A DNA stretch of 64,000 nucleotides, taken from the NCBI RefSeq assembly GCF_012910785.2, contig NZ_WTVH02000009.1, positions 62,001-126,000 of the forward strand, written 5' to 3'. Every line of letters begins with the position of its first letter. The stretch's first letter is position 1. A program made the position numbers and the translations under genes. This document shows, one piece after another, positions 3,609-44,978 of this stretch. This DNA comes from Aromatoleum buckelii (GTDB lineage Bacteria; Pseudomonadota; Gammaproteobacteria; Burkholderiales; Rhodocyclaceae). A model generated the notes under the pieces. That model worked only from the letters and a program-made list of their open reading frames with translations, had not been told where the DNA came from and searched no databases.

Positions 3609-3610
3609 CG

Positions 3611-10546: not shown

Positions 10547-10550
10547 CGCG

Positions 10551-17663: not shown

Positions 17664-17740
17664 TGCGGGCAACATGGTGCAGTGCTGCGGCACTGGGCCT
17701 TTTCGGGCAGTTCGCAATGCAGCGGAGCGCCGGCCGATGA
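17663..17740 (+). other. Possible 25-codon ORF linking two genes
   Basis: A short frame beginning MRATWCSAAALGLF and ending RSAGR starts on the last base of the O-ligase stop (TGATG). It ends inside the next ATG (ATGA). It could be a coupling leader that lets ribosomes re-initiate across an otherwise 73-nt gap. It has no recognisable domain and may be chance. Confidence 0.25.
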
Positions 17741-24496: not shown

Positions 24497-25594
24497 ATGA
24501 CTGAGGCAGTGCGCAGGACGGGAGGATTGACCAATTACATCGCTACGGCCGCCGAAGTCGGTGGGCAACTCGCGGCCAACCGCTATCTTGTCCTGCTGCG
24601 GATGCTGTGCGCAAAAGCGCTCTATGGCTTGTCCGCCGCCGAGTACGGTCTGTACGGCCTGCATCGCAGGCCTTTCTCCCGGGTTTCCGCCTACCGCACC
24701 AAGAAGCAGACCACCGCCTGGTTCAATCGTATCAATCCCGGCGACCGAAAACCGCTGGTCGAAGACAAACTCGCATTCCATCGAAAGTGCCAGTCGGCGA
24801 ACTTGCCGGTGCCCCCGCTGCTCGCTGTCCTGTCATCGCGCTCGCCGCACGACGCTGACGGCTTTCCGTTGCTGACCTGTTTCTCCGACGTTCAGCGACA
24901 TTTCGCAGGCGACGACAGCCTCCGCCTGATCCTCAAGCCCCGCAGCGACGCGATGGGGACGGGTGTGCGCTTCGTGGAGCTTCGCTCGGGCGAGCCTTTC
25001 GATATTGAAGGCCGGCCGATCGACGCAGTCCCTTTCGCCGACTCGTTGCACTTCGACATGCGGCGCGACGACTACCTCGTCCAGTCCTTCGTCCGCCCGC
25101 ATCCAGACGTCGCGCGGCTCGGCTCGGGCAAGGCGCTCGGAACGCTGCGGATCGTCACGTTTCTCAAGGGAAGCGAGTTCTGGGTGCTGTATGCGCTGAT
25201 GCGCATTCCCTCGCTCGGCAATGTGCACGACAACTTTTCCGCGGGTGCGAGCGGCAATCTGATCGCCAACGTCGATGTCGAAACCGGCCGGCTCGGCCCG
25301 GCATGGGGGCGGCGGAATGGCGGGTTCCCGCGGCTCCTGGAGTCGTTCGACTGCAATCCCGACACCGGTTTGCCGGTGCGCGGCGAAGCGCTGCCGCAGT
25401 GGGGCGAGATCCGCGATGCGGTGCGCCGCGCCGCGCACGCGTTCCGGGAGCTGCCGTTCCTCGGGTGGGATTTCGCGCTTTCCGACGACGGCATCGTCAT
25501 CATCGAGGCGAATTCGAACCCCGATATCGTTGGCGCTCAGGTGTCCACCGGGAAGGGCGCGCGCGAATTGCTGAGGCCGTTGTGCAGCGGCTGA
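24497..25594 (+). CDS. Sugar-transfer-associated ATP-grasp protein 1
   Basis: The 365-residue ATP-grasp enzyme is of the ATPgrasp_ST type. It has EDKLAFHRKCQSANLPVPP, the ATP-binding lysine segment LILKPRSDAMGTG, LGTLRIVTFL, and the Mg-binding carboxylates in FLGWDFALSDDG followed by VIIEANSNPD. Such proteins ligate a carboxylate to an amine using ATP and are common in surface-polysaccharide loci; their substrates are unknown. A 172-bp gap separates it from the propeller gene. It overlaps the GNAT gene by 13 nt and opens the peptide-chemistry cassette of the window. Confidence 0.85.
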   Translation: MTEAVRRTGGLTNYIATAAEVGGQLAANRYLVLLRMLCAKALYGLSAAEYGLYGLHRRPFSRVSAYRTKKQTTAWFNRINPGDRKPLVEDKLAFHRKCQSANLPVPPLLAVLSSRSPHDADGFPLLTCFSDVQRHFAGDDSLRLILKPRSDAMGTGVRFVELRSGEPFDIEGRPIDAVPFADSLHFDMRRDDYLVQSFVRPHPDVARLGSGKALGTLRIVTFLKGSEFWVLYALMRIPSLGNVHDNFSAGASGNLIANVDVETGRLGPAWGRRNGGFPRLLESFDCNPDTGLPVRGEALPQWGEIRDAVRRAAHAFRELPFLGWDFALSDDGIVIIEANSNPDIVGAQVSTGKGARELLRPLCSG

Positions 25595-26241
25595 TCAAGA
25601 ACACGGCGCGGCGCGCGCGGCGCAAGCTGGCCAATCTCCCGGCCTTGCGCTGGGCGTGGAGCGACCGCTATCTATTGTTGCTTGCAATCGAGGCCGAACG
25701 GGCACCCCAGGCAGATCCCGGCGACGAATTCGACTGCAACAACCTCGAACATTTGCGCTATTTCCGCCAAACGGAACGCTGGCTATCGCCGGAAGCATTC
25801 ATCGCCGAGGCGCGCGAGCGCATCGGCGCAGGCCTGCGGCTCTACACCGCAGTCGGCGACGGCGTGCTCCTTCACTACGGCTGGTTGGTCCCGATGCAGG
25901 AGCGGGCCCAGTTCCCGTACGTCGCCCAGAGCTACGACTTTCCGGACGGAACGGCGGTGTTGTTCAACGCCTACACGCATCCTTCGGCGCGGGGCTCGGG
26001 CCTCCACGAGCGCTCGATGCGTCGGCGGGTCTCTGATGCCGCGCGCCTGCCCGGCATTCGCCATATCTATACCGCGATCGAGTCCCATAACGCGCCGTCT
26101 CGGGCGGTCGCTGCCCGGACGGGTTTTCGTTGTGCGGAAGTCCTGTACGAAATAAGCCGCGTCGGCGCGGTCCGGCGCGGCACGATGACGCCCGAAGAAT
26201 ATTTCAATACGGTGGAACCACGTGGCAGAAGCTTCCTTTGA
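25582..26241 (+). CDS. GNAT-family N-acyltransferase
   Basis: A GTG start with GAGG 5 nt upstream gives 219 residues, overlapping the ATP-grasp gene by 13 nt. The chain has a GNAT core: LLHYGWLVPMQ, FNAYTHPSARGSGLHERSM (the acyl-CoA pyrophosphate loop R/Q-x-x-G-x-G/A form) and IYTAIESHNAPSRAVAARTGFR. It would move an acyl group, or with FemAB-like action an amino acid, onto an amine. The 3' end overlaps the next gene by 20 nt. Substrate unknown; its setting among ATP-grasps suggests modification of a peptide or amino sugar. Confidence 0.8.
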   Translation: MQRLIKNTARRARRKLANLPALRWAWSDRYLLLLAIEAERAPQADPGDEFDCNNLEHLRYFRQTERWLSPEAFIAEARERIGAGLRLYTAVGDGVLLHYGWLVPMQERAQFPYVAQSYDFPDGTAVLFNAYTHPSARGSGLHERSMRRRVSDAARLPGIRHIYTAIESHNAPSRAVAARTGFRCAEVLYEISRVGAVRRGTMTPEEYFNTVEPRGRSFL

Positions 26242-27499
26242 AATGACGCCCGCGCAACGTGCGCGCCTGCCTGTCCTCGTCCCGGACGTCCACGCGATCG
26301 GCATGATCGGCGTGGTCCGCTCGCTGGGAAAGGCCGGCTACCCCGTGCATGCCTGCGCGAGCCGGGCGGACGCCTTGGGGCTGTCGTCCAATTTCGCGTC
26401 GAAGTCGACACGTTGCCCAGCCTATGACGACCCCCAATTCCTCATCTGGCTCGACAACTACGCTCGGGACCACGACATCCGGGCGATCGTGCCGAGCGAA
26501 GCCTTCCTTCTGGCAATCCGCCCCGTGTTCGACCGCTACGCGCCGTTGCTGCCGGTTCGCCCCGATGAAGACTTCGTCTATGAGGCGTTCAGCAAGCCGG
26601 CGGTCCTGCTGCGCCTGCTCGAATCTCCGGATTCCGCCGCGCATCTTCCTCCCACGCTGTTCGTTCAGGATGGCGACCCGCTTCCGACCGAGGCGCTCGG
26701 CCTCCCGATTTTCGTCAAGGGCGACGGGACGGACGCCCGTCTCGGCAATGACAACATCGTGGCCCGAGCCGATTCGGCAAACGAAGCGCTCGAGCGCATC
26801 GTCAGGCTGCGCGAGCGCTACCGCCGGGTGCTGGTGCAGGGCTTTGTGCCGGGTCAGGGCACCGGCGCGTATTTCCTCGTGCATCAGGGCGAGATCCGGC
26901 AGGAGTTCATGAACCGCTGCTTGCACGAAGTCCCGCACACCGGCGGCTTCTGCTCCCTGCGCGACAGCTGGTGGCACGACGCGATGATCGAGGACGCGCG
27001 CCGCAAGATCCGCCATCTCGGCTGGGAAGGCATCGCGATGCTCGAATATCGCTGGGACCCGGACAGCGACCGCTTCTGGTTCATCGAGCTCAACGCGCGC
27101 TTCTGGGGCGCGCTGCACGTCGCGCTCTACGCCGGCGTCGACTTTCCGACGCAACTGCTCGACACGTTCCACCGGGCGACGGTGCGGCGGGTAAAGGAAT
27201 TTCCGCTGGGGATGCAGGTGCGCTATACGGTGCCGTTCGAGGTCGGGTACGTCATGTCGCGGTGGCGCGACCGCCGGCTGCCGCTCGCGCAGCGGCTGCG
27301 CAGCGTCGCAGGATGGTTCGCGCGTTTTCTCCACCCAGGCATCCGGTCGGACCTGCTGTACCCCGGCGACCGGAAGCTTTATCTGTTGCAGTGGCGGGCG
27401 TTTCTCCGAGGCGGAATTGCGTCCTTTCTGCACAGGGCGCGGAGCAGAGGCCTCCGGGATGCCCGAACTTCCGAAAAGCAAAGCGCAACGATTACCTGA
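26222..27499 (+). CDS. ATP-grasp protein, carbamoyl-phosphate-synthase-like
   Basis: This 425-residue protein begins with GTG inside the GNAT gene. It has an N-terminal pre-ATP-grasp domain (PDVHAIGMIGVVRSLGKAGYPVHACAS, AIVPSEAFLLAI). The ATP-grasp core follows, with FVKGDGTDARLGNDN, VLVQGFVPGQGTGAYFLV and the metal-binding FWFIELNARFWGALH. It is of the CarB/D-Ala ligase-like type and different from the ATPgrasp_ST members nearby. It probably forms an amide between an amino acid and a carboxyl group on an unknown acceptor. A 75-bp gap follows before the next ATP-grasp gene. Confidence 0.85.
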   Translation: MAEASFEMTPAQRARLPVLVPDVHAIGMIGVVRSLGKAGYPVHACASRADALGLSSNFASKSTRCPAYDDPQFLIWLDNYARDHDIRAIVPSEAFLLAIRPVFDRYAPLLPVRPDEDFVYEAFSKPAVLLRLLESPDSAAHLPPTLFVQDGDPLPTEALGLPIFVKGDGTDARLGNDNIVARADSANEALERIVRLRERYRRVLVQGFVPGQGTGAYFLVHQGEIRQEFMNRCLHEVPHTGGFCSLRDSWWHDAMIEDARRKIRHLGWEGIAMLEYRWDPDSDRFWFIELNARFWGALHVALYAGVDFPTQLLDTFHRATVRRVKEFPLGMQVRYTVPFEVGYVMSRWRDRRLPLAQRLRSVAGWFARFLHPGIRSDLLYPGDRKLYLLQWRAFLRGGIASFLHRARSRGLRDARTSEKQSATIT

Positions 27500-27574
27500 C
27501 GGGTTGCGGGCGCCGTGGGAATTGCGCGGCAAACCATTTTTTCGATCCAAAGTCTTCAAGTGGGGAGAGGCCGG

Positions 27575-28618
27575 ATGAGTGCAGTCAGTCAGCTGTCTAA
27601 TTATTTGAGGTTCGCCAGGGCGAATAAGCTGGAAACCGGGCGCAGTTTCGTTCAGCTTCTGCGCGACCTTTCAGTCATTGTGTCGAGAGGAATTACCCCA
27701 TCCGAATACTACCGGCTCTCGATGTACGAAGGCGTTCCGCCCGACTACGTCTCAGTCAAGGAGTATGTCCGGATCGAGCGCATCCTGAATCCTCGACAGA
27801 CGGGCGTCGTCAATTTCGACAAGTGGCACCAGTACTGTTTTTTCAAGGGACTCGGGTTGCCAACGCCCGAAGTGTTCGGCTTTGTCTCGGGCAAACGCGG
27901 CATGCTCGAAGGACGTCCGTTCTCCGGGGAGGCTGCGGCCCTGTTCGCGATGCTCGACAGGCACGAAAAGCCGGTCGTGATCAAGCCGTTCGGCGGTGGA
28001 CACGGGCACGGCTTCGATCTTCTCATCGATTGGTCCGCACTGCGCGAGACGCTGACGCTGAAGAACAAGGGGGAAGTGCACGTCAGCGATTTCCTCGCCG
28101 AAGTCGCGTCCGACCCCGAGGGCCTGATCTTTCAGGAGCACATCAAGCAGCATCCGCAGCTCGGCAGGTTTTCGGCGTCGGCCGTCAACACGCTCCGCGT
28201 GCTCACGGTGCTGACCAAAACCGGTGACGTCGAATTCCCGGCAGTAATCCTAAAGATGGCCCAGGGTACTGCGCTCGTCGACAACGTCGGCGCTGGCGGC
28301 ATCGCTTCGCACATGGACGTACAGAACGGCCGGCTCGGCCCCGGGTTCGTCTGGCCCGGGAAGGAGTCGTACGAGCGCCACCCCGAGTCAGGCGCACCGA
28401 TCCGCGGCTTTGCCGTCCCGTTCTGGCGCGAGGGACTCGATCTGGCGGCTCGCGCGCACCTCAATCTGACGAACGCCCGTAGTCTTGGGTGGGATGTCGC
28501 GATCACAGAGCAGGGGCCTCTGCTGCTCGAAATGAACAGCTATGTCGCGATTCCGGTGTTTCAACGCATGGGGCATTCGGTTCGGCACGGGGTGTTCAAA
28601 GCGATGCTGGATCATTAA
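27575..28618 (+). CDS. Sugar-transfer-associated ATP-grasp protein 2
   Basis: The 347-residue ATPgrasp_ST protein starts MSAVSQLSNYL with GGGGAGAGG just upstream. Family landmarks are FDKWHQYCFFKGLGLPTPEVFG, VVIKPFGGGHGHGFDLL (Gly-rich ATP loop), FQEHIKQHPQL, SAVNTLRVLT, VDNVGAGGIAS and GWDVAITEQGPLLLEMN carrying the metal ligands. The C-terminal Asn of LLEMN is intact, so the enzyme should be active. It is followed by a gene start that was then cut by an IS5-family element. Confidence 0.88.
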   Translation: MSAVSQLSNYLRFARANKLETGRSFVQLLRDLSVIVSRGITPSEYYRLSMYEGVPPDYVSVKEYVRIERILNPRQTGVVNFDKWHQYCFFKGLGLPTPEVFGFVSGKRGMLEGRPFSGEAAALFAMLDRHEKPVVIKPFGGGHGHGFDLLIDWSALRETLTLKNKGEVHVSDFLAEVASDPEGLIFQEHIKQHPQLGRFSASAVNTLRVLTVLTKTGDVEFPAVILKMAQGTALVDNVGAGGIASHMDVQNGRLGPGFVWPGKESYERHPESGAPIRGFAVPFWREGLDLAARAHLNLTNARSLGWDVAITEQGPLLLEMNSYVAIPVFQRMGHSVRHGVFKAMLDH

Positions 28619-28677
28619 AAGTCCTTTTTGCCAGGTTTCCGCCGTTTTCAACAAGTAACGAAGTATTGGGGGCACTG

Positions 28678-28795
28678 ATGCACCTTGCGAATCGTGGTCG
28701 AACTGTCGCATCCGTCTTGCGTGAATCGGCACGGGAGATCGGGGCAAAAGGGCGTGCCGTCTGGCGCAGCATCTCCTGGCGCACGGAGTACCTCA
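28678..28795 (+). pseudogene. 5' remnant of a gene cut by the IS5 element
   Basis: An ATG preceded by GGGGG opens a frame (MHLANRGRTVASVLRESAR... to about SWRTEYLR) that runs straight into the left inverted repeat of the IS5 element at 28796. The remaining gene is not found on the far side of the IS nest. Some 39 codons survive, too few to name the family. By position it was one more member of the ATP-grasp cassette. IS-adjacent deletion is the likely cause of its loss. Confidence 0.5.
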
Positions 28796-30074
28796 GGGCG
28801 CCTCGAAAAACCTCGACTCGCCCACCCTTGGTAAAATTACAGCGTCCTCAATCTCGCCACAGCCGACATCGATGAAACCGCGCAGCGCCATCAAGACCGA
28901 CCTGTTTGCCTTTGATGCCCACTGCAAGAAGATCGACACGCTGGGTGACCCGCTGGTCGAGATCGAATCGCATATCGATTTTCCCGCGCTGGCGGCCGAG
29001 GTCGATATGATTGCGCCGCGACTCGTGAGTGCGCAGGGCGGGCGCCCGCCATACCCGACCGAGACGATGGTGCGCATCCTGGTGTTGAAGCGTCTGTACA
29101 ACCTGTCCGATGAGCAGATGGAGTACCAGTTGCTCGACCGCATGAGCTACAAGCGCTTCTGCGGACTGGCGAATGCGACGAACGTTCCGGATCGCACCAC
29201 GGTGTGGACCTTCGAGAACCGGATTGGTGAAGCGGGGGCGAAGGCCTTGTTCGACGGGGTCTCGACGCAGCTGCTCAAGAAGGGGTTCATCGCGCGCGGC
29301 GGTCAGATCATCGACGCGACGCTGGTGCCGGCGCCCAAGCAGCACAACCGCCGCGGCGAGAAGGAACTGATCGAGCAAGGCGCAATGCCCGCCTCGTGGC
29401 GCCCGGCGAAGCGGCGCCAGAAGGATACTGAGGCGACCTGGACCAGGAAGCACGGCAAGAGCTACTTCGGCTACAAGCTGTCGATCAACATCGACAAGAA
29501 GTACAAGATCATCCGCCGAATCGAGACCGATACTGCCAGCACGCACGACAGCCAGCACTTTGACAACGTCTTCGACACGCGCAACACGAGCCGCGATGTC
29601 TATGCCGATCGGGGCTACCCGTCCGAGCAGCGTGAAGCCAGGCTCAAGGAGAACGGCTTTCGCAACCAGATCCAGCGGAAGGGCAAGCGCAACAAGCCGC
29701 TGTCCGAGTGCCAGCAGCGACGCAACAAACGCATCGCCAAGACGCGTGCGCGGGTCGAGCACGTGTTCGGGGCCATCGAGCAGATGGGCGGCAAGCTGCT
29801 GCGCACCATCGGTCAGGCGCGGGCGAACTTTGCGATGACGATGATGGCTGCCTGCTACAACCTGAAGCGGCTGGTCTATTTCAGGAAGGCCGGAATCGAG
29901 GCCTTCTGACGCCCGAAATGGGCCGCATCGCCGATGTCCGAGGCGATTCGAGGCAAAAACTGAGCGACACCGCGGGAAGAAGCGGTGATTTGCCGAAGGA
30001 ACTGAACCGAATTCGGTCGCGGTCATCGTGTCGCACCGGGGTTCATTGAAAACCTCGGGTTATTCGAGGTGCCC
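28796..30074 (+). mobile_element. IS5-family insertion sequence
   Basis: The ends carry imperfect inverted repeats: the left end reads GGGCGCCTCGAAAAACC and the right end, reversed, reads GGGCACCTCGAATAACC. The element is about 1.28 kb with one intact transposase gene. No target duplication is seen: the left flank ends in CTCA and the right flank begins ATAC. It lies inside an IS3 orfB on the right but next to a host gene remnant on the left. This points to a deletion or recombination after insertion. Confidence 0.8.
28872..29909 (+). CDS. IS5-family DDE transposase
   Basis: The 345-residue transposase has the IS5 layout: an N-terminal DUF772-like domain (GGRPPYPTETMVRILVLKRLYNLSDEQMEYQL) and a catalytic core. 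The three acidic motifs are IIDATLV, DVYADRGYPS and RVEHVFGAIEQ, giving a complete DDE triad. No frameshift was found, so it should be active. It is the only full gene in the IS nest between 28.8 and 31.5 kb. Confidence 0.93.
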   Translation: MKPRSAIKTDLFAFDAHCKKIDTLGDPLVEIESHIDFPALAAEVDMIAPRLVSAQGGRPPYPTETMVRILVLKRLYNLSDEQMEYQLLDRMSYKRFCGLANATNVPDRTTVWTFENRIGEAGAKALFDGVSTQLLKKGFIARGGQIIDATLVPAPKQHNRRGEKELIEQGAMPASWRPAKRRQKDTEATWTRKHGKSYFGYKLSINIDKKYKIIRRIETDTASTHDSQHFDNVFDTRNTSRDVYADRGYPSEQREARLKENGFRNQIQRKGKRNKPLSECQQRRNKRIAKTRARVEHVFGAIEQMGGKLLRTIGQARANFAMTMMAACYNLKRLVYFRKAGIEAF

Positions 30075-30482
30075 ATACGTGATATCCGTTACCCACGCCT
30101 TGTTGGGGGCCGTCACGGCAAATTGGCGATCGAGCAGGTTAGGCGCCACCGGCAGACTGTGTTTCGAATCCGTCGTCGCCTTGAACTTGCGCTTTTGCTT
30201 GCAGCGCAATCCGAGCTTCTTGCGGATGCGCTTGATGCGGTGGAGGCCTACCTGGACGCCGTGATCCGAAAGATCCGCCTGAAGACGCTGCGGCCCGCAG
30301 GTCTCGCGCGTGCGCTGGTGCGCCGCTGCAATCTGTGTTTCGAGGCGAACTTCTTCGCGAGCACGTGCCGAAGGCGGACGCCTTCGCCAAGCGTGGTAGC
30401 CGCTCTCGGAGACGTTCAGTACCCGGCACATGGCCGCCACCGGATGGCGTTGTCGCAGCGATTCAATGTGGCCGTATTTCAC
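30060..30482 (-). pseudogene. IS3-family OrfB, N-terminal half, truncated by IS5
   Basis: Translation starts at a GTG overlapping the orfA stop (GTGA). It gives an IS3 OrfB N-terminus: an HTH_21-like region (LRQRHPVAAMCRVLNVSESGYHAW), then KKLGLRCKQKRKFKATTDS and NKAWVTDITYG. The frame then reaches a stop inside the IS5 right inverted repeat. The first catalytic Asp (VTDITY) is present; the other two acidic residues are lost. It cannot make a functional transposase. Confidence 0.8.
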
Positions 30483-30781
30483 CGCGACTCCTTCGCGAAA
30501 TAGGCCGCAAACTTTTTTAGCAGGTCCCGCTCCAGCTTGACCTCGGCCAGCTCCTTTCTCACGCGGGCCAGTTCCATCTCCAGATCCGTCAGCGGCTTCT
30601 GAGCCTGGCCAACTTCCTTCAGCTTGCCCGCCCGGGCCGCATTCACCCAGTTCTTCAGGCTGCCAACCGGGATCGACAGCCGCCTGGCGGCCTCTCTCAT
30701 CGACAGCCCTTCGCTCTCAGCCAGCTTGACCGCCTGCTCTCGAAATGCCTGCGTATAGACCCCTCGGGGCATCCGTTCCAT
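30479..30781 (-). CDS. IS3-family transposase OrfA (HTH_Tnp_1)
   Basis: The 100-residue OrfA begins MERMPRGVYTQAFREQAVKLAESEG, a helix-turn-helix of the IS3 type (AARRLSIPVGSLKNWV). A leucine-zipper-like C-terminus follows (LARVRKELAEVKLERDLLKKFAAYF). It is intact, but its partner OrfB is cut, so the element is dead unless complemented. A larger frame reaching 31192 on this strand is antisense to another IS3 fragment. Confidence 0.85.
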   Translation of the reverse strand: MERMPRGVYTQAFREQAVKLAESEGLSMREAARRLSIPVGSLKNWVNAARAGKLKEVGQAQKPLTDLEMELARVRKELAEVKLERDLLKKFAAYFAKESR

Positions 30782-30841
30782 CTGTGTCCTCCGTTCGTGT
30801 AATTCTACGAAACGTCGGACTCCATTTTTTCCAGCCCACCT

Positions 30842-31240
30842 CACTCCGATCGCGGCAGCCAGTACTGCGCGCACGACTATCGCGAGGTGTTGAAGAATCG
30901 GGGCATCACGGTGTCGATGAGCCGGCGCGCGAACTGCTACGACAACGCGCCGATGGAGTCGGCCAACGGCACCCTGAAGGTCGAACGGGTCTATGACGAA
31001 CACTACGCCACACGTCAGCAGGCGATCGACGATCTGACCGAATACATCGGCTACTACAACACCGAGCGGCGTCACAGCGCACTCGACTACGACAGTCCGG
31101 TCCAATTCGAACGGAGGTGGGCCATGCAGCAACAGCACACACAACCGGTCGATACCGCCAGTTATCCACCGCCGCGCGCTCTGCGTGCGCATGAGGCGCC
31201 GCGCGCGCCAGTGGATAACTGGCTGCCGCAGTGCCCTTGA
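30842..31240 (+). pseudogene. IS3-family OrfB, C-terminal part, opposite orientation
   Basis: The frame carries the DDE second and third blocks: HSDRGSQYCAHDY at its left edge, then YDNAPMESANGTLKVERVY with the catalytic Glu and YYNTERRHSALDYDSPVQFE. It runs opposite to the IS3 orfA/orfB piece on its left, so this is either a second element or an inverted part. The left end is cut exactly before the HSDRG motif. The right end is followed by GGCGTCCATCAAACGGGGAC, which looks like an IS terminus. Confidence 0.75.
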
Positions 31241-31249
31241 TGGCGTCCA

Positions 31250-31495
31250 TCAAACGGGGACAGCTTCACTGACCTTGGGCGGACGGCCGGAAATGGGCTT
31301 GGCGAGCAGCGCATTCTGCGCGCCATGGGCGAAGTCGGCCAGCCAGCGGTAGACGCTGCGCACATTGACGCCGAACGCGGCCGCAACGGAGGCAGCCGAT
31401 TGACCCTCACGCAGGGCCTTGATCGCCTGCTGGCGCATGACCTGTAAGGAATGATGATCGATGGCGCGACCGTCGGAGGAGCGTTTGCATTTCAT
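31250..31495 (-). pseudogene. IS630-family transposase N-terminal fragment
   Basis: The fragment encodes an 81-residue chain starting MKCKRSSDGRAIDHHSL. Its helix-turn-helix (ALREGQSAASVAAAFGVNVRSVYRWLADF) and ALLAKPISGRPPKVS are typical of the IS630 transposase N-terminus. The rest of the transposase, including all catalytic residues, has been replaced by the end of the neighbouring IS3 fragment. It is the outermost relic of the IS nest. Confidence 0.7.
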
Positions 31496-31850
31496 GCGCG
31501 TATCGTCTCATGCCGCGGACAATACTTTCTAAAAAGTTAGTACCAAAGACGGGAGGAAAAGGCAGGATTTCCGGCCCGACGGATTACCACCCGGTAGCTC
31601 ATTTCCATGAAGCGCGGTAGATCACCGCCCGAATTTTCCTGATATGTTTCAATCATGTCCAGGGGAGATGGGGCCGGCACGCTGCACCACATCGGGCGAA
31701 CATGCGTGGTTGATGCTCCATTACGATGATCGCTGGTCAGCGCTCGACGGACGGCCGGTGGGAGGTATCGGCTGTCTTGGTCCTCGGCGTGAGTTTGAGG
31801 CAGTCCGGACAATAATCGAATAGCGCGGTGCGGGATGGAGGGGGCAGCGG
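31496..31850. other. Gene-free stretch between IS nest and Mur-ligase fusion gene
   Basis: These 355 bp hold no supported gene. An AT-rich patch near 31524-31545 may be the old IS630 terminus. The right part should contain the promoter and leader of the fusion gene, whose ribosome site GGAGGGGGC lies just before the ATG. A - strand frame here has no recognisable features and was not called. Confidence 0.5.
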
Positions 31851-33785
31851 ATGAGGCGTCTTGTGCGGGGTGTCTTGAAACATGTGCGTGGCCTGGTCCC
31901 GGCCCTGAAATGGCGCGCAGCAAGGTGGAGCGCCTTTGGCCGAGTCTCTATCATGCGGCCGCGACTCGACGCGGTGACCTTCGTTGCTATTACCGGCAGT
32001 GCTGGCAAGACTGGCGCGAAGGATTTGGCCGCAGCCGTGCTGCAAGTGCTCGGTCCGTGCCAGATGAGTAGTGTGTCGACGAACGATCATTTCGGCGTCG
32101 CCGAGACCGTGCTCGGCACCACTCGGCGGCACCGATTCAGCGTGGTCGAAATGGGCGCGCCCCGACCGGGCTATCTCGACCGCTCGCTGAGAATGGTCCG
32201 TCCGCGGATCGCGGTCCTGACGCTGGTCGCACGTGACCACTTCACGCGGTACAAGAGCGTGGAGGCCATTGCGGCAGAAAAGGGCAAAGTGGTTTCGGCC
32301 CTGCCGCCCGACGGCATTGCCGTGCTCAATATCGATGATCCGCTGGTACGCGCGATCGGTGAAAGCTGCGGGCGGCGGGTCATCTGGTTCGGGCAACGCG
32401 AGGGCGCTACGGTCCGGCTGCGCGAGGCGCGCTCGCGCTATCCCGAGCCGCTGACACTGACGGTCGACTATGCAGGCCGGATCTACGAGATCGCCACCGC
32501 GCTGCACGGCACACATCAGGCTCCTTCTGTTCTGATCGCTCTCTGTGTCGGATTGGCGGCGGGCGTGCCGATGGAGACGGCGATCGCGGCACTGGCGAAG
32601 GTGCCGATTACTCCAGCCCGCATGGAGATCATGAGTGCCGATAACGACGCTGTATTCATCCGCGACGATTGGAAGGCGCCCGTGTGGTCTTTCCAGGCTC
32701 CGCTCGATTTCTTGCGCGAAGCCCGGGCCGAGCGAAAGGTCGCGATCATCGGAACGCTCTCCGATTATTCACTGTCCGCTTCGAAGCTTTACCCGAAAAT
32801 TGCACGGCAGGTCCGGGAAGTGGCCGATCTCGCGATATTCGTCGGTCCGCATGCATTGCGCGCACTCAAGGCTCGAAGCAAGCCCGACGATCTTTCAATT
32901 CTCGCCTTTCCCGATATACGTGCGGCAGCTGAGCATCTGCACGCCGCGCTTGGCGCCGGCGACCTTGTGCTTGTAAAGGGTTCGCACAAGGCTGATCACC
33001 TCACCCGGCTTATCCTGGACCGCACAGAGCGGGTGTTGTGCTGGGACGATCGCTGTCGCCGTGGAACGTTGTGCGAGCGGTGCCCGAAATTGCGCGATCC
33101 TGCGTTTGCCTCCGGTCCCCCCGAGCCTGTTAGCCGACGCTTATTCACCCGCGCTGCTTCTTCAGAGGAGGAATCGGTGGTAGCGGTCGTTGGACTCGGC
33201 AACGCGGGCGTGCAGTTCGATGGCACGCCGCATAACGTGGGGCGAGGCGTGCTGGATGAACTTGTCCGTAGCGCGGGGAAGCAGTGGATCGAGGAGGGCG
33301 AGGGGCACGTCTGCTCAATCGTTGTGGAGGGCCTTGGTGTGAAGCTTTTGAAGCCTTCCGGCGCAATCAACCAGTGTGGCCCAAAGGTCCGCGATTTCCT
33401 GGAGCGGACGGGAGTGGACGTGCGCCGCTGCATACTCGTTCACGACGACATGGATCTGATGCTCGGGGACGTGCGCATCAAGCGCGACGGCGGTGATGCG
33501 GGGCATAAGGGTGTTCGATCAGTCATCGCCGCGCTCGGAACGGGATCGTTTGCACGGGTGCGGGTCGGCGTGCGAAAGGAGGGCGAGCGGCAGGCCGCGC
33601 GGAACCTCGTGCTCACGAAGTATTCTGCCACCGATGAAGCGCCGCTTGCACTGGGCGTCGGTTGCGCCGCCAAACAGGTGCTTGAACTTATCGGGGGGCC
33701 GCCGGGGTCGTCGCGGGAACTCTTCAATACGGGCGGCGGTGCTGACGCTGACAAGGGGTGCGGCGAGTTATCGTCAACGGTTTGA
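31851..33785 (+). CDS. MurF-like Mur ligase fused to a peptidyl-tRNA-hydrolase domain
   Basis: This 644-residue two-domain protein has a Mur ligase part at residues about 40-390. It shows P-loop ITGSAGKT (GSAGKT 49-54), STNDHFGV, VVEMGAPRPG and the HFTRYKSVEAIAAEKGKV segment typical of MurF. A linker holds Cys397, 402, 408 and 411, a possible zinc knuckle. Residues about 443-625 are a Pth domain: GLGNAG with Asn451, His461 (catalytic His20 in E. coli Pth), Asn507 (Asn68) and Asp532 (Asp93). The Asn114 position is Lys553. Mur ligases join amino acids or dipeptides to carboxylates using ATP. Pth cleaves peptidyl-tRNA. One chain with both, beside ATP-grasps and a D,D-peptidase, suggests a dedicated peptide pathway. 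Both domains are clear; the joint function is unknown. Confidence 0.88.
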   Translation: MRRLVRGVLKHVRGLVPALKWRAARWSAFGRVSIMRPRLDAVTFVAITGSAGKTGAKDLAAAVLQVLGPCQMSSVSTNDHFGVAETVLGTTRRHRFSVVEMGAPRPGYLDRSLRMVRPRIAVLTLVARDHFTRYKSVEAIAAEKGKVVSALPPDGIAVLNIDDPLVRAIGESCGRRVIWFGQREGATVRLREARSRYPEPLTLTVDYAGRIYEIATALHGTHQAPSVLIALCVGLAAGVPMETAIAALAKVPITPARMEIMSADNDAVFIRDDWKAPVWSFQAPLDFLREARAERKVAIIGTLSDYSLSASKLYPKIARQVREVADLAIFVGPHALRALKARSKPDDLSILAFPDIRAAAEHLHAALGAGDLVLVKGSHKADHLTRLILDRTERVLCWDDRCRRGTLCERCPKLRDPAFASGPPEPVSRRLFTRAASSEEESVVAVVGLGNAGVQFDGTPHNVGRGVLDELVRSAGKQWIEEGEGHVCSIVVEGLGVKLLKPSGAINQCGPKVRDFLERTGVDVRRCILVHDDMDLMLGDVRIKRDGGDAGHKGVRSVIAALGTGSFARVRVGVRKEGERQAARNLVLTKYSATDEAPLALGVGCAAKQVLELIGGPPGSSRELFNTGGGADADKGCGELSSTV

Positions 33786-33802
33786 GCGCGCGAGAGGGCT
33801 GG

Positions 33803-34414
33803 ATGGTTACCGGAAAGTACTTCCGCGCCATCGCGGACGCCGCCGGACGCCGCTTGTGGCTGGCTAGCGTCAAAGTCGAAGCCGCGGCGGCAAGCGGCAG
33901 CCGGGACGAGCGGCGGATCGCAGTACTGCATCGGCGGCTCGGGGTGCCCGCGCATTACGTTCGGCGGGGCCTGCCGTTCCACCCCGAAGCGCGCGAGACA
34001 GTAGCGGTCGCTTGCGGGCTCGCCGGCGCCCTTCATCACATGACGCCGGAGACGTGCGAGCAGTGGGGCCGGATGAAGGCTGCGGCCGCAGAGGCGGGCA
34101 TTACGCTAGCGGTGCGCTGGGCGTTTCGCAGTATCGATGACCAAGCCGTGCTGCTCCGCAAGTACCTGCGATGCGGAAAGCAGATTGACGAATTGCTCAC
34201 GTGGATTGCCGCGCCAGGCTACAGCGAGCATCACAGCGGCCGCGCGCTGGACTTCGAGCCGATCCCTCGAGGGACTCCGTTCGAGCACACTTCGGCATTC
34301 GCATGGCTATGCGAGCATGCGGGCATCTATGGTTTTGCAATGTCGTATCCACAAGACAACGACTACGGACTTGTGTTCGAGCCTTGGCACTGGTGTTTCC
34401 AGGAACGGACGTAA
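33803..34414 (+). CDS. VanY-type D,D-carboxypeptidase (peptidase M15B-like)
   Basis: The chain of 203 residues starts MVTGKYFRAI with GAGAGGG a few bases upstream. A GTG at 33758 that overlaps the fusion gene is an alternative start. The zinc site is complete: SEHHSGRALDFEP supplies His and Asp (SxHxxGxAxD), and FEPWHWCF supplies the ExxH pair. RWAFRSIDDQAVLLRKY matches the family arginine motif. VanY enzymes remove the terminal D-Ala from peptidoglycan-type peptides. No signal peptide is visible, so it may act in the cytosol on a precursor. It follows the fusion gene closely and precedes an ATP-grasp gene. Confidence 0.87.
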   Translation: MVTGKYFRAIADAAGRRLWLASVKVEAAAASGSRDERRIAVLHRRLGVPAHYVRRGLPFHPEARETVAVACGLAGALHHMTPETCEQWGRMKAAAAEAGITLAVRWAFRSIDDQAVLLRKYLRCGKQIDELLTWIAAPGYSEHHSGRALDFEPIPRGTPFEHTSAFAWLCEHAGIYGFAMSYPQDNDYGLVFEPWHWCFQERT

Positions 34415-34824
34415 TCAGCGGCCGAATGACTCCGCAAGGTGCGCGTCCGCCGAGGATTCCGATGGGAGGAGGTGATGAGAATTAATCTGCAGAGGTGGAA
34501 CGTCGCGAAGTGCTACGCACGGATCGCTATTGCGTGGGCGAAGGGCTTTCCGATGCACGTCGACCAGTCGCGTGGTGATCTGTTGTCGTTGCCACGGCGC
34601 ATGTGTGAACAGTTCATTCTCCAGGCCCATAACGGCATCACCGCCCAGAATTATTACGACCTCAATCTCTTTGATCCGCGCAGGAGGTGGGCGGACAAGC
34701 GGCAGTACGTCGGACATTTCGACTTGCCCCGGCTCTTCCGATATCTAAACAGCCAAGCCCACGAAGCACTTGCGCGCGACAAGGTCGTATTCCATCTGTA
34801 CTGCGAGGCCCTCGGCATTCCGAC

Positions 34825-36254
34825 GAGCTAAAGTCAATTCTGGTGTATGGACCCGTCCGGCATGGCTGATCAGGCGGCGAGCCGCTGCTGTTCGTGCTCT
34901 TCGTCTTTCACGGGTTCGCCGTCCTTGAAGACGACGCCGCCCATCAGTTCGGCAATGCGCTCAACGCCGCGAATCCGCCGCCAGGATTTCTCGGCTTCCT
35001 GCACGAGCTTGAAGGCGAGACCGAGGAAGCTCGAGCGCGACACGCAGTTCTTCGTGCGGGTAGTGCGGTGACGCACGGTGGCGAAAGTCGACTCGATCGG
35101 GTTGGTCGTGCGCAGGTGAATCCAGTGCTCGGCCGGGAAGTCGTAGAAGGCGAGCAGCGCGTCGCGATCCCTGACGAGCTTGTCGGCCGCCTTCGGGTAC
35201 TTCGCCTGGTAGCTCTCGACGAAGCGCTCGAAGGCGCTCACGGCCGCGGCGCGCGTCGGGGCCATCCAGATCTCGTGGAGCTGCGCCTTCGCCTTGGCCT
35301 GCAGGCTCTTGGGCAGCGCGTTGAGCACGTTGGCGCTCTTGTGCACCCAGCAGCGCTGCCGGCGGGTTTCGGGGTAGAGCTCGTCGAGCGCCCCCCAGAA
35401 GCCCAGCGCCCCGTCGCCTACTGCCAGGCGCGGACCGACTTCGAGGCCACGAGCCTTGAGGTCGCGCAGCAACTCGAGCCAGGACGCCTTCGATTCGCGG
35501 TGCCCGTCGCCGATCGTGACCAGTTCCTTGGTGCCGTCGAGCCGCACGCCGATGACGACCAGCAGACACTGGCGGGCATCGTCCTCGCCGCGCAGGCTGG
35601 TGTGCACGCCGTCGGCCCACCAATAGACGTAGCGGCTGCCGGACAAATCCCGCTTCATCCAGCCGGCGTAGTCGCTCGCCCACTCGGCCTTCAGGCGGCT
35701 CACCACGTTGGGGGAGAGGCCCTTGGCCTCATCGCCGAGCAGCACGGTGAGCGCCTCGCGCATGTCGCCCGTCGAGATGCCCTTCAGGTACAGCCACGGC
35801 AACGCCGCCGACACCCGCGCCGAGCGGCGAACATACGGCGGCACCAAGGCGGAATTGAACTTCACCCCAGCGCCCGAGCGGTCACGCACCTTGGGTACCC
35901 GCACCTCGACGTTGCCGACCGCCGTGAGCACCTCGCGTGCCGGCAGGTAGCCATTTCTGACCACCGCTCGGCTCCCGCCCAGCATCCGCACGTTCTCGTA
36001 CTCGGCCAACAACTGCTGCACCTCCACTTCAATCGCCCGCTCGATGAGATCCCGCGCGCCGCGCCGGATCAGCTCCTCCAGCGACAGCCCCACTTCCGAT
36101 TGCTCAACCGACTGCTCACTCGTATCCTTCTTCAAGGCGCGCCTCCGTGGTTGCTGAAAATTTGGTCTCGACAACTCAATTCTCAGCAGAGGCACGCCGC
36201 CTCATCAAGCCCTTCTATCAGGATCTGGTCATACACCAGTCTTGACTATATCTC
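34825..36254 (-). mobile_element. IS256-family insertion sequence with 9-bp target duplication
   Basis: The 1430-bp element is bounded by imperfect inverted repeats: left GAGCTAAAGTCAATTCTGG, right reversed GAGATATAGTCAAGACTGG. It is flanked by a perfect direct repeat CATTCCGAC at 34816-34824 and 36255-36263. That size fits the 8-9 bp duplications of IS256. It carries one intact transposase on the - strand and sits inside an ATP-grasp gene. Confidence 0.92.
34870..36195 (-). CDS. IS256-family (mutator-type) transposase
   Basis: The 441-residue transposase shows the Transposase_mut pattern: EEVQQLL-like N-terminus, NGYLPAREVLTAVGNVEVRVPKVRDR, and the DDE triad in YWWADGVHT, LAVGDGALGFWGAL and TTNPIESTFATVRHRT. 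QRCWVHKSANVLNALPK is the family CxxH-type signature. The reading frame is intact, so the element should be mobile. The true start may be somewhat inside the annotated ATG, near the KKDTSEQS segment. Confidence 0.94.
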   Translation of the reverse strand: MPLLRIELSRPNFQQPRRRALKKDTSEQSVEQSEVGLSLEELIRRGARDLIERAIEVEVQQLLAEYENVRMLGGSRAVVRNGYLPAREVLTAVGNVEVRVPKVRDRSGAGVKFNSALVPPYVRRSARVSAALPWLYLKGISTGDMREALTVLLGDEAKGLSPNVVSRLKAEWASDYAGWMKRDLSGSRYVYWWADGVHTSLRGEDDARQCLLVVIGVRLDGTKELVTIGDGHRESKASWLELLRDLKARGLEVGPRLAVGDGALGFWGALDELYPETRRQRCWVHKSANVLNALPKSLQAKAKAQLHEIWMAPTRAAAVSAFERFVESYQAKYPKAADKLVRDRDALLAFYDFPAEHWIHLRTTNPIESTFATVRHRTTRTKNCVSRSSFLGLAFKLVQEAEKSWRRIRGVERIAELMGGVVFKDGEPVKDEEHEQQRLAA

Positions 36255-37106
36255 CATTCCGACCGTCGCTCCGCTTGCGGTCTATGCGCCCGGATGCCGA
36301 ACGCTGCCTTGGCAATGCCTGCACTCTTCTGGCGAACTTGAGGCGTTTATGCTGCAGCCGGATACCGCGGAGCTCTTCTTTAAGACCGACGCTGGTAGCA
36401 AAGGGCGCGGCGCGCTGTCGCTCGGACGGCGGCTATCGCCTGAAAGCTGGATGCGACTGCCGGATGAAGCGGAGATGACGCTCGATGAAGTTGTGGCGCA
36501 GCTCGGCAAGGTGAGGGGCGGATGTTGGCTCGTCCAGCGCCGATTGGTGCCACACACCGCTATTGCGGACGTTGTCCCCCATGTCTGTCCCACCATACGG
36601 GTAATGACCCTGCTCGATGGCGACAAGGTCCATGTTACCGGTGCGCTCGTGCGCTTCGGTGACGGCAATTTTCCGGCCGACAACGCGGGGAGCGGGGGTA
36701 TCGTTTTTCTCATCGACCTCGCGACTGGAAAGCTCTCGAAAGGCGCGCATACGGTCGACGGCCGCACGATCTTTCGCTCCTCGCATCACCGGACCCGAGT
36801 TGAGGTTGCCGGACGCAAGATCCCGTTCTGGACCGAGATTGTGGCGCTCGCGAAGAGCGCGGCGAGCAATTTCCCGGCGTCGCCCTATCTCGGTTGGGAC
36901 ATCGTCGTCACCCAAGACGGCCCGCTGATTCTCGAAACGAACTCGATGTCAGGCCTGCTTTCCTTGCAGAAACTGAACGAAAAGGGCGTGCTCGAAACCG
37001 AGCTGCGGAAATTCATCGAGCCCGTACAGGGTGTCCTGCTGTCGGGCGTAACACTGCGGGAACCGGACCATCGCCCCCAGCAGGACGATCTGCTGCCGCG
37101 GATTCG

Positions 37107-38303
37107 TCAGGCCGGTTGAGGGTCGCTCTGGGCGTGGCGCGGGTCGATCGAAAGGCCGTTGCCGAGCCGGCCCGCCGTCTTCGCAAGTTCGCGGCCAAGT
37201 GGTCCCTGAAGCAGACCGTGGGGGGCTGCGGTCTGTACGGACACGCATCGCGGGCGAGTGTTGATCTCAATAACGACCGGCCCGCCGTCGGTGATCCCGA
37301 TATCCCAGCCAATGCACGGCAGAAAGTTGAAGCGTTGAGCACTCTCCGCCACCAGCGTCTGAATCTTCCCCCACTCCGGGGTCTCGACCCGCGGCAGCGA
37401 TGCGCCGGTTAGTGGATGAACGTCGGTAGGCTTCGGAATGCCATCGTCTAGGCAGTATGCCCGCTGCAACAGACCGGTTCTCATGGTGATAGGAGCGATG
37501 AGACCGCCTCCCGCGACGTTATCGGTCGCGCTACGGCCGCTGCCGATCCGCACTGCTGCGCCAAGGAACTCGACTCCCCGCTCGGTACACAACGTCATGA
37601 TGCGAACAGTGGGGCAGACGTGCGGCACGATGTCGGCAAAGAGCTGATGCGGCCTGAGCCTCCGTTGCACCAGAAATCGACCAAGTTTTCCGCCCGGTGT
37701 AAGGTGCTGCAGGATGCCTTCGACATCCGTCGCGGTTTGGGATGGCAGTTCAATCCACGCCCTCGTCGATGAACCGTCTGGACCGACCGCGAGAGCGCCT
37801 TCCCCGAGACTTCCGTCGGCAGGTTTGAAGAAAAGGTCCTCCCCGTGGTGGTCTTGAAGGAATTGTCGGACGGCGCCAGCCGTGTCGAGACGAAGCCCGA
37901 AGTACGGCTTCGTACCAGGTGCGGTCGTCGCGAGCGTTTCGGGCGTGGGAATCCCGTGCGAATCGGCAAAGATGTGGAACAGGGCCTTGTCGCGCGCGAG
38001 CACGTCGTAGACCGGCGGATTGATGCGGTCGAAATAGCGCCACTTCTGGTACGAGCCGAGGAAGCTACGCTTCTGCTCGAAGCTCAGTTCGCCTCGATAC
38101 AGCCCGAGGTGGTAGTAGTCCTCAGCACAGATCGCGCTGCTTTTCAGAAGGCGGGTCTGCTCGATCAGGCGCGCCGACAACGGGCCGAGGCCAAGGCCGC
38201 CCTGTCTGCGATGCCATTCGAAGTCGACCGCGATCTGGTTCGAAAAGTCGAGATAGCGCTTCGAAAGCCGCATCAGCTGGAGGGGCAGATCGAAAACGGA
38301 CAT
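37107..38303 (-). CDS. Sugar-transfer-associated ATP-grasp protein 4
   Basis: The 398-residue ATPgrasp_ST enzyme faces the other members. It contains LARDKALFHIFADSHGIPTPE, the ATP loop LFFKPADGSLGEGALAVG, VQRRLRPHQLFADIVPHVCPTVRIMTL, DNVAGGGLIAP and CIGWDIGITDGGPVVIEINTRP with the metal-binding carboxylates. It shares the HVCPTxRxMTL motif with the IS-split gene on the other strand, so these two form a closer pair than the rest. The 3' ends of the two convergent genes overlap by 13 nt. Confidence 0.88.
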   Translation of the reverse strand: MSVFDLPLQLMRLSKRYLDFSNQIAVDFEWHRRQGGLGLGPLSARLIEQTRLLKSSAICAEDYYHLGLYRGELSFEQKRSFLGSYQKWRYFDRINPPVYDVLARDKALFHIFADSHGIPTPETLATTAPGTKPYFGLRLDTAGAVRQFLQDHHGEDLFFKPADGSLGEGALAVGPDGSSTRAWIELPSQTATDVEGILQHLTPGGKLGRFLVQRRLRPHQLFADIVPHVCPTVRIMTLCTERGVEFLGAAVRIGSGRSATDNVAGGGLIAPITMRTGLLQRAYCLDDGIPKPTDVHPLTGASLPRVETPEWGKIQTLVAESAQRFNFLPCIGWDIGITDGGPVVIEINTRPRCVSVQTAAPHGLLQGPLGRELAKTAGRLGNGLSIDPRHAQSDPQPA

Positions 38304-40332: not shown

Positions 40333-40391
40333 CGGAAGCAAGAGCAACCTCCCTTGGTCGGTTTTCAGGGGGCGGCGGCGCCGCCCGGGGT

Positions 40392-41876: not shown

Positions 41877-42047
41877 CGGCGGTGCCTCGATCTGGATCGA
41901 CACGCGCCTTCCCGTCTGCATGCACGCGGCGCGCGGGCGTTGACGCAGCGAACGGGGCAGGAGCGCGGCGCCGATCGCCCTTCACGGTGAGAGGCCGCGG
42001 GCGGGATGGCGAAGCGGGCGACCTGGCCTTGCATGGAGGGGCGGGCG

Positions 42048-44884: not shown

Positions 44885-44978
44885 CGTTCCGTGCCGGAAA
44901 GGGTTGAATGCCCGACTTTCATGACGGAAGTCTAGCCCAAGCACGATGGGCAAGACGCGACAATTCGTTTCCGCCGGG

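Follow-up and report, generated by a model that had tools for sequence, protein, structure and literature searches.

The 64,000-nucleotide stretch of Aromatoleum buckelii contig NZ_WTVH02000009.1 analysed here (the window) carries, inside an exopolysaccharide (EPS) locus of the XrtA/PEP-CTERM type, a group of predicted amide-bond-forming enzymes that includes ATPgrasp_ST amidoligases and a Mur-type ligase fused to a Pth domain. These are read, tentatively and as something close to an even call, as an accessory module of the locus that may decorate the EPS repeat, while it is lipid-linked, with amino acids in amide linkage.

The setting had been described as an XrtA polysaccharide locus, and this was borne out, as the exosortase XrtA (4656..6218, +; TIGR03109, 337 bits, cut-off 208) scores above its curated cut-off and the associated markers accompany it. 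The locus includes an XrtA polysaccharide deacetylase (2745..3608, +; TIGR03006, 465.7 bits), a FemAB/VimA-like XrtA protein (3662..4648, +, approximate start; TIGR03019, 524.6 bits over residues 173-500 of frame 3146-4648), an XrtA-associated Wzy/O-ligase (16218..17663, +; TIGR03097, 468 bits), a Wzx-type flippase (40392..41921, -; PF13440, 261.6 bits), a PLP decarboxylase (42048..43535, -; TIGR03099, 641.9 bits) and an acyl-CoA ligase (43289..44953, -; TIGR03098, 817 bits), both XrtA-associated, with TIGR03015, TIGR03087, TIGR03088 and TIGR04063 as further markers over cut-off. Three AsnB-type enzymes are present, namely the XrtA amidotransferase (7397..9325, +; TIGR03108, 1126.9 bits), a second amidotransferase (10290..12479, +; TIGR01536, 499.9 bits, from residue 88-89 of the frame) and a third (38488..40398, -, approximate start; PF00733, 251 bits on the longer frame) whose 44-61% relatives lie near ATP-grasps in G182, G020, G039 and Halieaceae, together with a nucleotide-sugar dehydrogenase for uronic acid supply (13699..15015, +; TIGR03026, 360 bits). 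Two more polysaccharide deacetylases (PF01522) have relatives near the cassette elsewhere: that at 17587..18702 (+) shows 51% identity to those of G182 and Halieaceae and 47-48% to those of G020, and that at 18573..19817 (+) has a 40% relative adjoining Mur-Pth in Halieaceae. No PEP-CTERM target proteins turned up when the window was scanned with a crude motif. The XrtA loci of Haft 2006 share with this one XrtA, TIGR03019, TIGR03006, TIGR03108, glycosyltransferases and TIGR03097-99, but the ATPgrasp_ST/Mur-Pth module is unnamed among them, and the word ATP-grasp is absent from the accessible part of the text of PMC1569441.

Three intact ATPgrasp_ST genes (PF14397, cut-off 31.4 bits) were found in the cassette, AG1 (24497..25594, +; 129 bits), AG2 (27515..28618, +, approximate start; 145.6 bits) and AG4 (37107..38303, -; 157 bits), the last convergent with a broken fourth copy, AG3. 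Five places in the whole genome match this family, and those over the cut-off are exactly the window's four, so the clustering is not a matter of chance. The copies are divergent (AG2 23% and AG4 26% identical to AG1), and K147, R218, D325, E337 and N339 in AG1 numbering, which we take to be the typical active-site residues of ATP-grasp enzymes, are invariant in all ten proteins of an alignment that includes AG1, AG2 and AG4 and leaves out AG3. The nearest folds to the AlphaFold model of AG1 are RimK, D-Ala-D-Ala ligase (Ddl) and LysX. A further ATP-grasp protein of unclear family (26222..27499, +) reaches 28.7 bits for ATPgrasp_Ter (cut-off 29.1), has a 41% relative near Mur-Pth in Halieaceae L024 and gave no sequence match in the PDB at E 0.01; its earlier assignment as CarB type was dropped, CPSase_L_D2 scoring only 19.0 bits against a cut-off of 19.8. 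Of the five ATP-grasps first counted, the four ATPgrasp_ST frames thus stand over cut-off, but one of these is broken and the fifth falls below it. Between AG1 and this protein lies a GNAT-fold acyltransferase (25582..26241, +, approximate start; PF00583, 23.2 bits, cut-off 20.7, scanned on the longer frame 25303-26241), for which a possible GTG start at 25582 overlaps the AG1 stop.

AG3 is split by an IS256-family insertion. Its first piece (34475..34824, +, by frame reading) stops at the insertion, and its second (36255..37119, +) matches PF14397 with 126.9 bits over residues 477-701 of the 741-residue frame 34894-37119, more than half of which is the antisense strand of the element. This element of about 1430 bp (34825..36254, -; PF00872, 219 bits), whose boundaries were set by comparing it with two other copies, contains a transposase gene at 34870-36195 (-), has imperfect terminal inverted repeats and is flanked by the 9-bp direct repeat CATTCCGAC (34816-34824 and 36255-36263); the 1326-bp transposase stretch occurs in seven 100% identical genome copies, this one included. 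About 3.2 kb that carries transposase genes and remnants, among them an IS5-family transposase (28872..29909, +; NF033581, 310.8 bits, cut-off 140) and Pfam matches to HTH_21, HTH_Tnp_1, rve_3 and HTH_28 (30060..31495, both strands), separate the half made of AG1, GNAT, ATP-grasp and AG2 from that made of Mur-Pth, VanY and AG3. The cassette of about 14 kb proposed in the preliminary description therefore holds as a non-random cluster but not as an uninterrupted one, and it may be decaying in this genome, because one ATP-grasp gene is broken and transposase genes divide it.

The Mur-Pth gene (31851..33785, +) encodes a protein with Mur_M (95.5 bits), Mur_C (49.6 bits) and Pth (122.6 bits) domains. 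MurF is the best match to its Mur part in sequence and in fold: the best NCBIfam match is murF at 193.9 bits, the Mur P-loop and MurF fold are kept, and Foldseek matched the structure model to MurF and Pth. The score of the Mur part lies under the murF cut-off of 288.6, however, and the UDP-MurNAc-binding N-domain is missing. Alignment begins at MurF profile position 74, and in the model just one helix precedes the P-loop domain. Beyond the Mur C-terminal domain the protein carries a tail of four cysteines, Cx4Cx5CxxC, found in 16/16 subfamily members versus 0/5 MurF, and an RDDxKAP motif that MurF does not share; the tree also places the subfamily apart from all five MurF. By these sequence features, the absent UDP-binding N-domain and the Cys4 tail, the Mur part marks a subfamily of its own, of which a literature search, within the sources it reached, found no description.

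The Pth domain is whole (TIGR00447, 118.4 bits, cut-off 100), like that of bacterial Pth, but differs from it in the fusion to a Mur ligase. Aligned to solved Pth, it keeps the N, H, N and D that we take to be the catalytic residues. At the position after the conserved His, which presumably corresponds to Asn114 of E. coli Pth, four fused proteins have K, R or L and two solved Pth have N; classical Pth activity of the fused domain is therefore not certain. A more distant protein in G940 has the inverted order, Pth-Mur.

A described system of comparable architecture is MurT/GatD, whose amidation substrates, in the accessible part of PMC6085368, are lipid I and lipid II and not soluble UDP-linked precursors. 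MurT, like Mur-Pth, is a Mur ligase without the UDP-binding N-domain and with a Cys4 element, but its cysteine-rich insertion is central and that of Mur-Pth follows the C-terminal domain (comparison limited to the same part of PMC6085368). Mur-Pth also differs in keeping Mur_ligase_C and in having Pth in place of GatD, and no GatD-type family was found among its scanned neighbours. Because the domain that would hold a UDP-sugar is lost, the acceptor of Mur-Pth is probably lipid-linked, as is that of MurT in the text consulted (PMC6085368); for Mur-Pth this is our proposal.

The start of the VanY/M15 metallopeptidase gene (33758..34414, +; PF02557, 99.3 bits, cut-off 25) overlaps the end of Mur-Pth. 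Its translation contains SEHHSGRALD and EPWHW, presumably the metal-binding and catalytic motifs of M15 peptidases, and its closest solved relatives in the PDB are LdcB/DacB carboxypeptidases. It is the sole VanY match in the whole genome, and in none of five close-relative genomes does a VanY lie beside the Mur gene (family search in four, sequence comparison in G1471). The family assignments of GNAT, of the Mur_M, Mur_C and Pth fusion and of VanY, all over cut-off, agree with the preliminary description. A peptidoglycan side branch, in which a MurF-like ligase and VanY would alter the stem peptide, would account for the murF match and for the LdcB/DacB kinship of VanY, but is barely credible given the sub-cut-off Mur part with no UDP-binding N-domain, another MurF-like gene in the genome at C2:401261, the lack of any N-terminal hydrophobic or signal-like stretch in the hydropathy of VanY, and the EPS setting.

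Differential conservation was observed for the parts of the cassette in other genomes. Close Mur relatives, all with RDDxKAP, occur in five other genomes, and the Pth fusion in 4/5 of them, the Mur of G107 being without Pth. Exosortase EPS loci house four of the five, and in three two ATPgrasp_ST genes lie within 6 kb of the Mur gene, which upholds the claim that the amide-bond enzymes form a group tied to exosortase loci; in 250 genomes of the order, Mur and clustered ATPgrasp_ST are associated (Fisher 1.6e-6; 9.7e-5 with the own genome left out). The fit is partial: the exosortase locus that houses Mur-Pth in G1471 shows no matching ATP-grasp out to about 20 kb; in G039 and G020, comparable loci carry ATPgrasp_ST but lack Mur; and the number of ATP-grasps differs from locus to locus. 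Among more distant Mur relatives (G744, G963, G369 and G940, the last from an 85% complete genome), ATPgrasp_ST was found in 0/4 genomes and a Mur gene near an XrtA match in 0/4. On this showing the Mur/ATPgrasp_ST core recurs in exosortase loci, but VanY and the distant Mur relatives do not follow it, and the 'full set' does not hold as one pathway, since VanY accompanies none of the five relatives, the ATP-grasp count varies, AG3 is broken and, in G976, a 47% Mur-Pth lies among HDOD, RuBisCO-like, GGDEF/EAL and chemotaxis genes on a different contig from the XrtA match.

A chance gathering in an IS-rich hotspot, with partial cooperation, VanY and GNAT as strays and a module being lost, would suit the insertion in AG3, its multicopy transposase, the IS5-family and other remnants, the solitary VanY, and the absence of a Mur orthologue at 1e-40 from all 100 other genomes of the family; it is improbable, as the pairing of Mur with two ATPgrasp_ST genes is seen again in genomes from two further families of the order and in one from Halieaceae. 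Slightly less improbable, yet still quite unlikely, is a pathway unrelated to the glycan, producing a soluble peptide-like metabolite or a RimK-like protein modification with the EPS genes as mere neighbours. The RimK-like ATPgrasp_ST model, the surroundings of Mur-Pth in G976 and the distant Mur relatives outside XrtA loci would fit such a pathway, whereas the EPS genes and exosortase repeatedly found alongside, in four other genomes, argue against it. Iyer et al. 2009 reportedly predicted, from ATP-grasp neighbourhoods, pathways that decorate surface polymers with peptides or amides, and prediction of this sort is not new in kind. The teichuronopeptide/TupA and ATP-grasp amidoligase systems differ in lying outside exosortase loci, and we know of no Mur-Pth in them.

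Glucuronic acid of the Campylobacter capsule is amidated by the TupA-like ATP-grasp of the amidoligase Cj1438, which works, as the present ATP-grasps may, on the carboxyl of a polysaccharide uronic acid; it uses amine donors, and no Mur or Pth is named in the accessible part of PMC11800379. This precedent favours separate decorations, in which each ATP-grasp or AsnB enzyme would make its own single amide on a different uronic acid, with ammonia, an amine or one amino acid as donor, and nothing would be extended or trimmed. The three AsnB-type enzymes with the dehydrogenase, the varying ATP-grasp number and the divergence of the ATPgrasp_ST copies are consistent with it, but it leaves the Pth-bearing Mur ligase and the FemAB-like protein unexplained, and we regard it as unlikely while giving it appreciable weight. 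In Porphyromonas, an aminoacyl-uronamide linking sugar is the product of VimA (which matches TIGR03019), VimE and WbpS; sorted proteins are joined to its amino acid, and the authors note the same genes adjoining exosortases (PMC7468200, text seen in part). The Wbp/Vim pathway of Porphyromonas and Tannerella, as far as that text goes, has in common with the locus a deacetylase, a VimA/TIGR03019-type protein and an AsnB-type amidotransferase, but names no ATP-grasp or Mur ligase and uses another sortase and secretion system (PMC7468200). VimA-like (TIGR03019), deacetylase (TIGR03006) and WbpS-like (TIGR03108) genes occur together in the window.

For the accessory amide-bond module, we infer what the enzymes act on, what they make, in which order the steps run and what Pth does, and the 'short peptide' and VanY 'trimming' of the preliminary description belong to the same inferred part; single amino-acid or amine amides would account for most genes equally well. 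The core deacetylase would free an amine on a sugar, the FemAB/VimA-like protein would load an amino acid on it, and the AsnB-type enzymes would convert uronic acids to uronamides, with the nucleotide-sugar dehydrogenase as another probable part of the aminoacyl-sugar pathway. The ATP-grasp ligases, of RimK/D-Ala-D-Ala-ligase fold, and the Mur-type ligase may form further ATP-driven carboxyl-amine bonds and so load the repeat unit with amino acids (or amines) before it is flipped by Wzx. The fused Pth most likely cleaves an ester intermediate or ester-linked side products, candidates being aminoacyl- or peptidyl-tRNA from the FemAB-like step; GNAT may cap or acylate an amine, and VanY could be merely carried along at this locus or act as a trimmer peculiar to this strain.

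A bolder version, which we consider a long shot, is that the module equips the lipid-linked XrtA glycan with an aminoacyl or short peptidyl arm, whose amine would be the exosortase nucleophile joining PEP-CTERM proteins to the exopolysaccharide. Mur would then act on the lipid-linked sugar, Pth would handle a tRNA- or ester-linked amino acid, and Mur-Pth would be a new ligase-hydrolase class, the whole forming a Gram-negative counterpart of the sortase's peptidoglycan cross-bridge. The acceptor onto which exosortase transfers PEP-CTERM proteins was called unidentified in 2020 in the accessible part of PMC7468200, and the amide-bond enzymes recurring beside XrtA, FemAB and AsnB offer concrete candidate genes for this acceptor. 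Floc formation in activated-sludge bacteria has been linked, in partly accessible sources, to EPS genes and PEP-CTERM proteins. The Mur-Pth subfamily, with no N-domain, a Cys4 tail and both fusion orders, would widen the known targets of Mur ligases.

The locus appears to be a variant of amide-decorated surface-polymer loci, with a subfamily in which a Mur ligase is fused to a Pth domain (Mur-Pth). The genome comprises 4.16 Mb, and the window, on its contig 4, contains in its left part a full XrtA locus (XrtA scoring 337 bits against a cut-off of 208), which bears out the exopolysaccharide (EPS) setting claimed in the preliminary description. Its members include an ATPase, an epimerase, a TIGR03006 deacetylase, a FemAB-like TIGR03019 protein, XrtA, glycosyltransferases, a TIGR03108 amidotransferase, a second AsnB-type protein, a nucleotide-sugar dehydrogenase, a Wzy-like TIGR03097 protein and two more deacetylases; a polysaccharide lyase 14-type protein at 19703–21277, perhaps for polymer trimming, lies within it, and a Kelch-repeat protein is encoded at 23086–24324, directly upstream of the cassette. 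The first gene run of the cassette (24497–28618) reads AG1, GNAT, ATP-grasp and AG2, the second (31851–37119) Mur-Pth, VanY and AG3, and AG4 (37107–38303) faces the second run, AG1–AG4 being the ATPgrasp_ST (PF14397) genes; 3' of the cassette follow a third AsnB-type gene (AsnB3, 38488–40398, reverse strand), Wzx, and an XrtA-linked decarboxylase and acyl-CoA ligase. The genome's four ATPgrasp_ST matches that exceed the cut-off all fall in the cassette region, and its fifth match, located elsewhere, stays below the cut-off. Within the window, neither Rfam at gathering scores nor a crude scan for the PEP-CTERM motif returned any match.

Insertion elements have damaged the cassette. AG3 is interrupted by an IS256-family element at 34825–36254, flanked on both sides by CATTCCGAC; two other IS256 copies have ends identical to those of the AG3 copy and different flanks, the genome contains seven identical copies of the transposase stretch, and the element has apparently been active recently. 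Between the two gene runs lie an IS5-family transposase and fragments of further transposases. A single intact ATP-grasp protein of 741 aa is ruled out by the element inside AG3, and the region therefore has four intact ATP-grasp genes, not the five initially counted. The CarB type assigned to one of them (26222–27499, forward strand) was likewise rejected, as family scores do not bear it out.

The Mur part of Mur-Pth (31851–33785, forward strand) starts at position 74 of the MurF profile, with one helix preceding the P-loop domain, and the structural model displays MurF-like central and C-terminal domains plus a Pth fold, with low confidence at residues 1–14, 403–441 and 617–644. A Cys4 tail (Cx4Cx5CxxC) follows the C-terminal domain in 16 of 16 relatives, the present protein counted, and in none of five MurF proteins. 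The motif RDDxKAP occurs in six of the 16 (the present protein and those of G182, G107, the Halieaceae genome G1019, G976 and G1471) and is absent from the other 10; the five external bearers are called close relatives, by a criterion set after the sequences were seen. An unrooted tree of 21 rows, with duplicate rows and secondary ORFs of loci excluded, joined the present protein with those of G1471, G976, G107 and Halieaceae (100/100), G182 lying outside, and recovered MurF as one group (100/100). A MurF identity of the Mur part was ruled out by scores, model, Cys4 comparison and tree; matches of about 30% in family genomes were also discarded as relatives, the five read of 62 (own genome excluded) grouping with MurF. 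The Mur-Pth fusion is present in the own genome, G182, G976, Halieaceae and G1471, while G107 has no Pth domain and G940 has the reversed order (L036:12152–14065, reverse strand), Pth preceding a Mur ligase that likewise bears the Cys4 tail; ThiC and an outer-membrane efflux protein are encoded nearby on this short contig. Fusion in both orders argues that the Mur and Pth activities would belong together. Two Cys4 Mur paralogues stand in tandem in G963 (L034:16024–18713), and more distant Cys4 Mur ligases directly adjoin an AsnB-type gene (L057:15237–18445 and L033:3–2397), possibly a Mur/amidotransferase pair like MurT/GatD with another amidotransferase. Such adjacency was observed in G744 and at one of the two loci of G1391.

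Residues K147, R218, D325, E337 and N339 (AG1 numbering) are invariant in the alignment of AG1, AG2, AG4 and seven relatives, whereas the rest of the sequence is 21–31% identical to AG1, so the substrates of these ATP-grasps may well differ. For AG1, the AlphaFold model (pLDDT 83.9) best matched RimK, D-Ala-D-Ala ligase and LysX, with modest TM scores (0.35–0.46 of the query) among the 50 matches listed.

The explanation we tentatively prefer, at close to an even chance, is an accessory module adding amino acids or amines through amide bonds to the lipid-linked EPS repeat unit. In the available part of PMC7468200, a putative deacetylase, a TIGR03019-related VimA and the AsnB-type WbpS account for a serine- or glycine-bearing linking sugar to which sorted proteins are amide-bonded, and its authors, who report the same genes adjoining exosortases, propose that a sugar modified with an amino acid is made there as well; the deacetylase, VimA-type and AsnB-type genes of this pathway all occur in the present locus too. 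The ATP-grasp and Mur ligases would add further amide bonds beyond this core, and an ATP-grasp of Campylobacter has been shown to act on a capsular uronic acid (PMC11800379, in part). MurT, which has no UDP-binding domain, acts with GatD on lipid I/II and not on soluble UDP-linked precursors (excerpts of PMC6085368); the Mur part here likewise has none, which makes the lipid-linked repeat unit the likely acceptor of Mur-Pth. Fem ligases use aminoacyl-tRNA as substrate (excerpts of PMC2922099), and by that analogy the Pth domain could plausibly clear tRNA-linked side products. The dedicated pathway first proposed was right in direction but its product is unproven, and the cassette itself is real though it had been overstated. 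Open-licence papers yielded no description of the Mur-Pth subfamily, an absence that is weak evidence, no text using the Pfam family name and none describing this gene set.

At 1e-40, Mur-Pth matches were detected in 3 of 300 order, 5 of 398 phylum and 5 of 369 class genomes (own included), and only in the own genome among 101 of the family, these sets overlapping; the Halieaceae protein as query matched 3 of 390 genomes of its order (own or query included), the one scan that covered named genomes detected a single locus, in the Halieaceae MAG, and a plasmid search for the fusion gave 120 matching records, none covering 80% of the query. ATPgrasp_ST at 1e-10 was found in 16 of 250 order genomes, at least two copies within 5 kb in four of these 16, three being the Mur-positive genomes and G039 Mur-negative (Fisher 1.6e-6 for Mur against clustered ATPgrasp_ST; 9.7e-5 with the own genome removed; assuming that all 250 lie among the 300 Mur-searched genomes). 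ATPgrasp_ST occurs with AsnB3 and without Mur in G039 and G020 (in G020 with a deacetylase too), which indicates, as far as gene neighbourhoods tell, that the Mur part is accessory to a broader ATPgrasp_ST/AsnB3 pattern. None of the four distant Mur genomes tested (G744, G963, G940, G369; G349, G353, G418 and G1391 were left out) has ATPgrasp_ST; XrtA matches lie far from the Mur gene or on another contig in G744 and G963 and are lacking in G940 and G369. Such relatives outside XrtA loci favour a soluble peptide-like metabolite or a modified protein as the product, made merely beside EPS genes, as do the unrelated neighbours of the isolated G976 Mur-Pth (HDOD, RuBisCO-like, GGDEF/EAL, chemotaxis and other genes, the XrtA match being on a different contig); we consider this improbable.

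The neighbourhoods of the close relatives were compared, one comparison covering only ORFs with a match or above 230 aa. Co-occurrence elsewhere held in part, two ATPgrasp_ST genes standing beside Mur in G182, G107 and Halieaceae but none near the G1471 and G976 Mur-Pth. The G182 locus also has a deacetylase, a PLP decarboxylase and an acyl-CoA ligase, with AsnB3 at about 16 kb and XrtA at 25 kb; in G107, Mur is accompanied by an Acetyltransf_6 protein and an ATP-grasp of weak similarity (23%), and XrtA lies 9 kb away; Halieaceae (ATPgrasp_ST at 103 and 141 bits) has a relative of the former CarB-type ATP-grasp (41%), two deacetylases and AsnB3, with XrtA, FemAB and a TIGR03006-type deacetylase about 20–25 kb from Mur-Pth; and the G1471 locus, in which sequence comparison gave no matching ATP-grasp near Mur-Pth, contains deacetylases and an exosortase (PF09721, 164 bits), all within 20 kb. 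The ATP-grasp profile of one neighbourhood search was built from an alignment including some proteins later found, and PF14397 matches give independent support. VanY, formerly counted in the co-occurring set, was dropped as a constant member, as no VanY gene was found next to Mur in any of the five (family search in four; sequence comparison in G1471, with none in its 40 kb); matches occurred in three of eight genomes searched, the own genome, G182 (1364026, against Mur at 1482513) and Halieaceae (contig C17, Mur on C23), and none in the relatives' neighbourhood stretches compared by sequence. Large double FemAB-like Acetyltransf_6 proteins are encoded in the ATPgrasp_ST loci of G182 and G020 (L017:2175–4385; L045:9858–11993), and two FeeM-like N-acyl amino acid synthase proteins (L016:9430–10197 and 11871–12665) lie near the G182 Mur-Pth.
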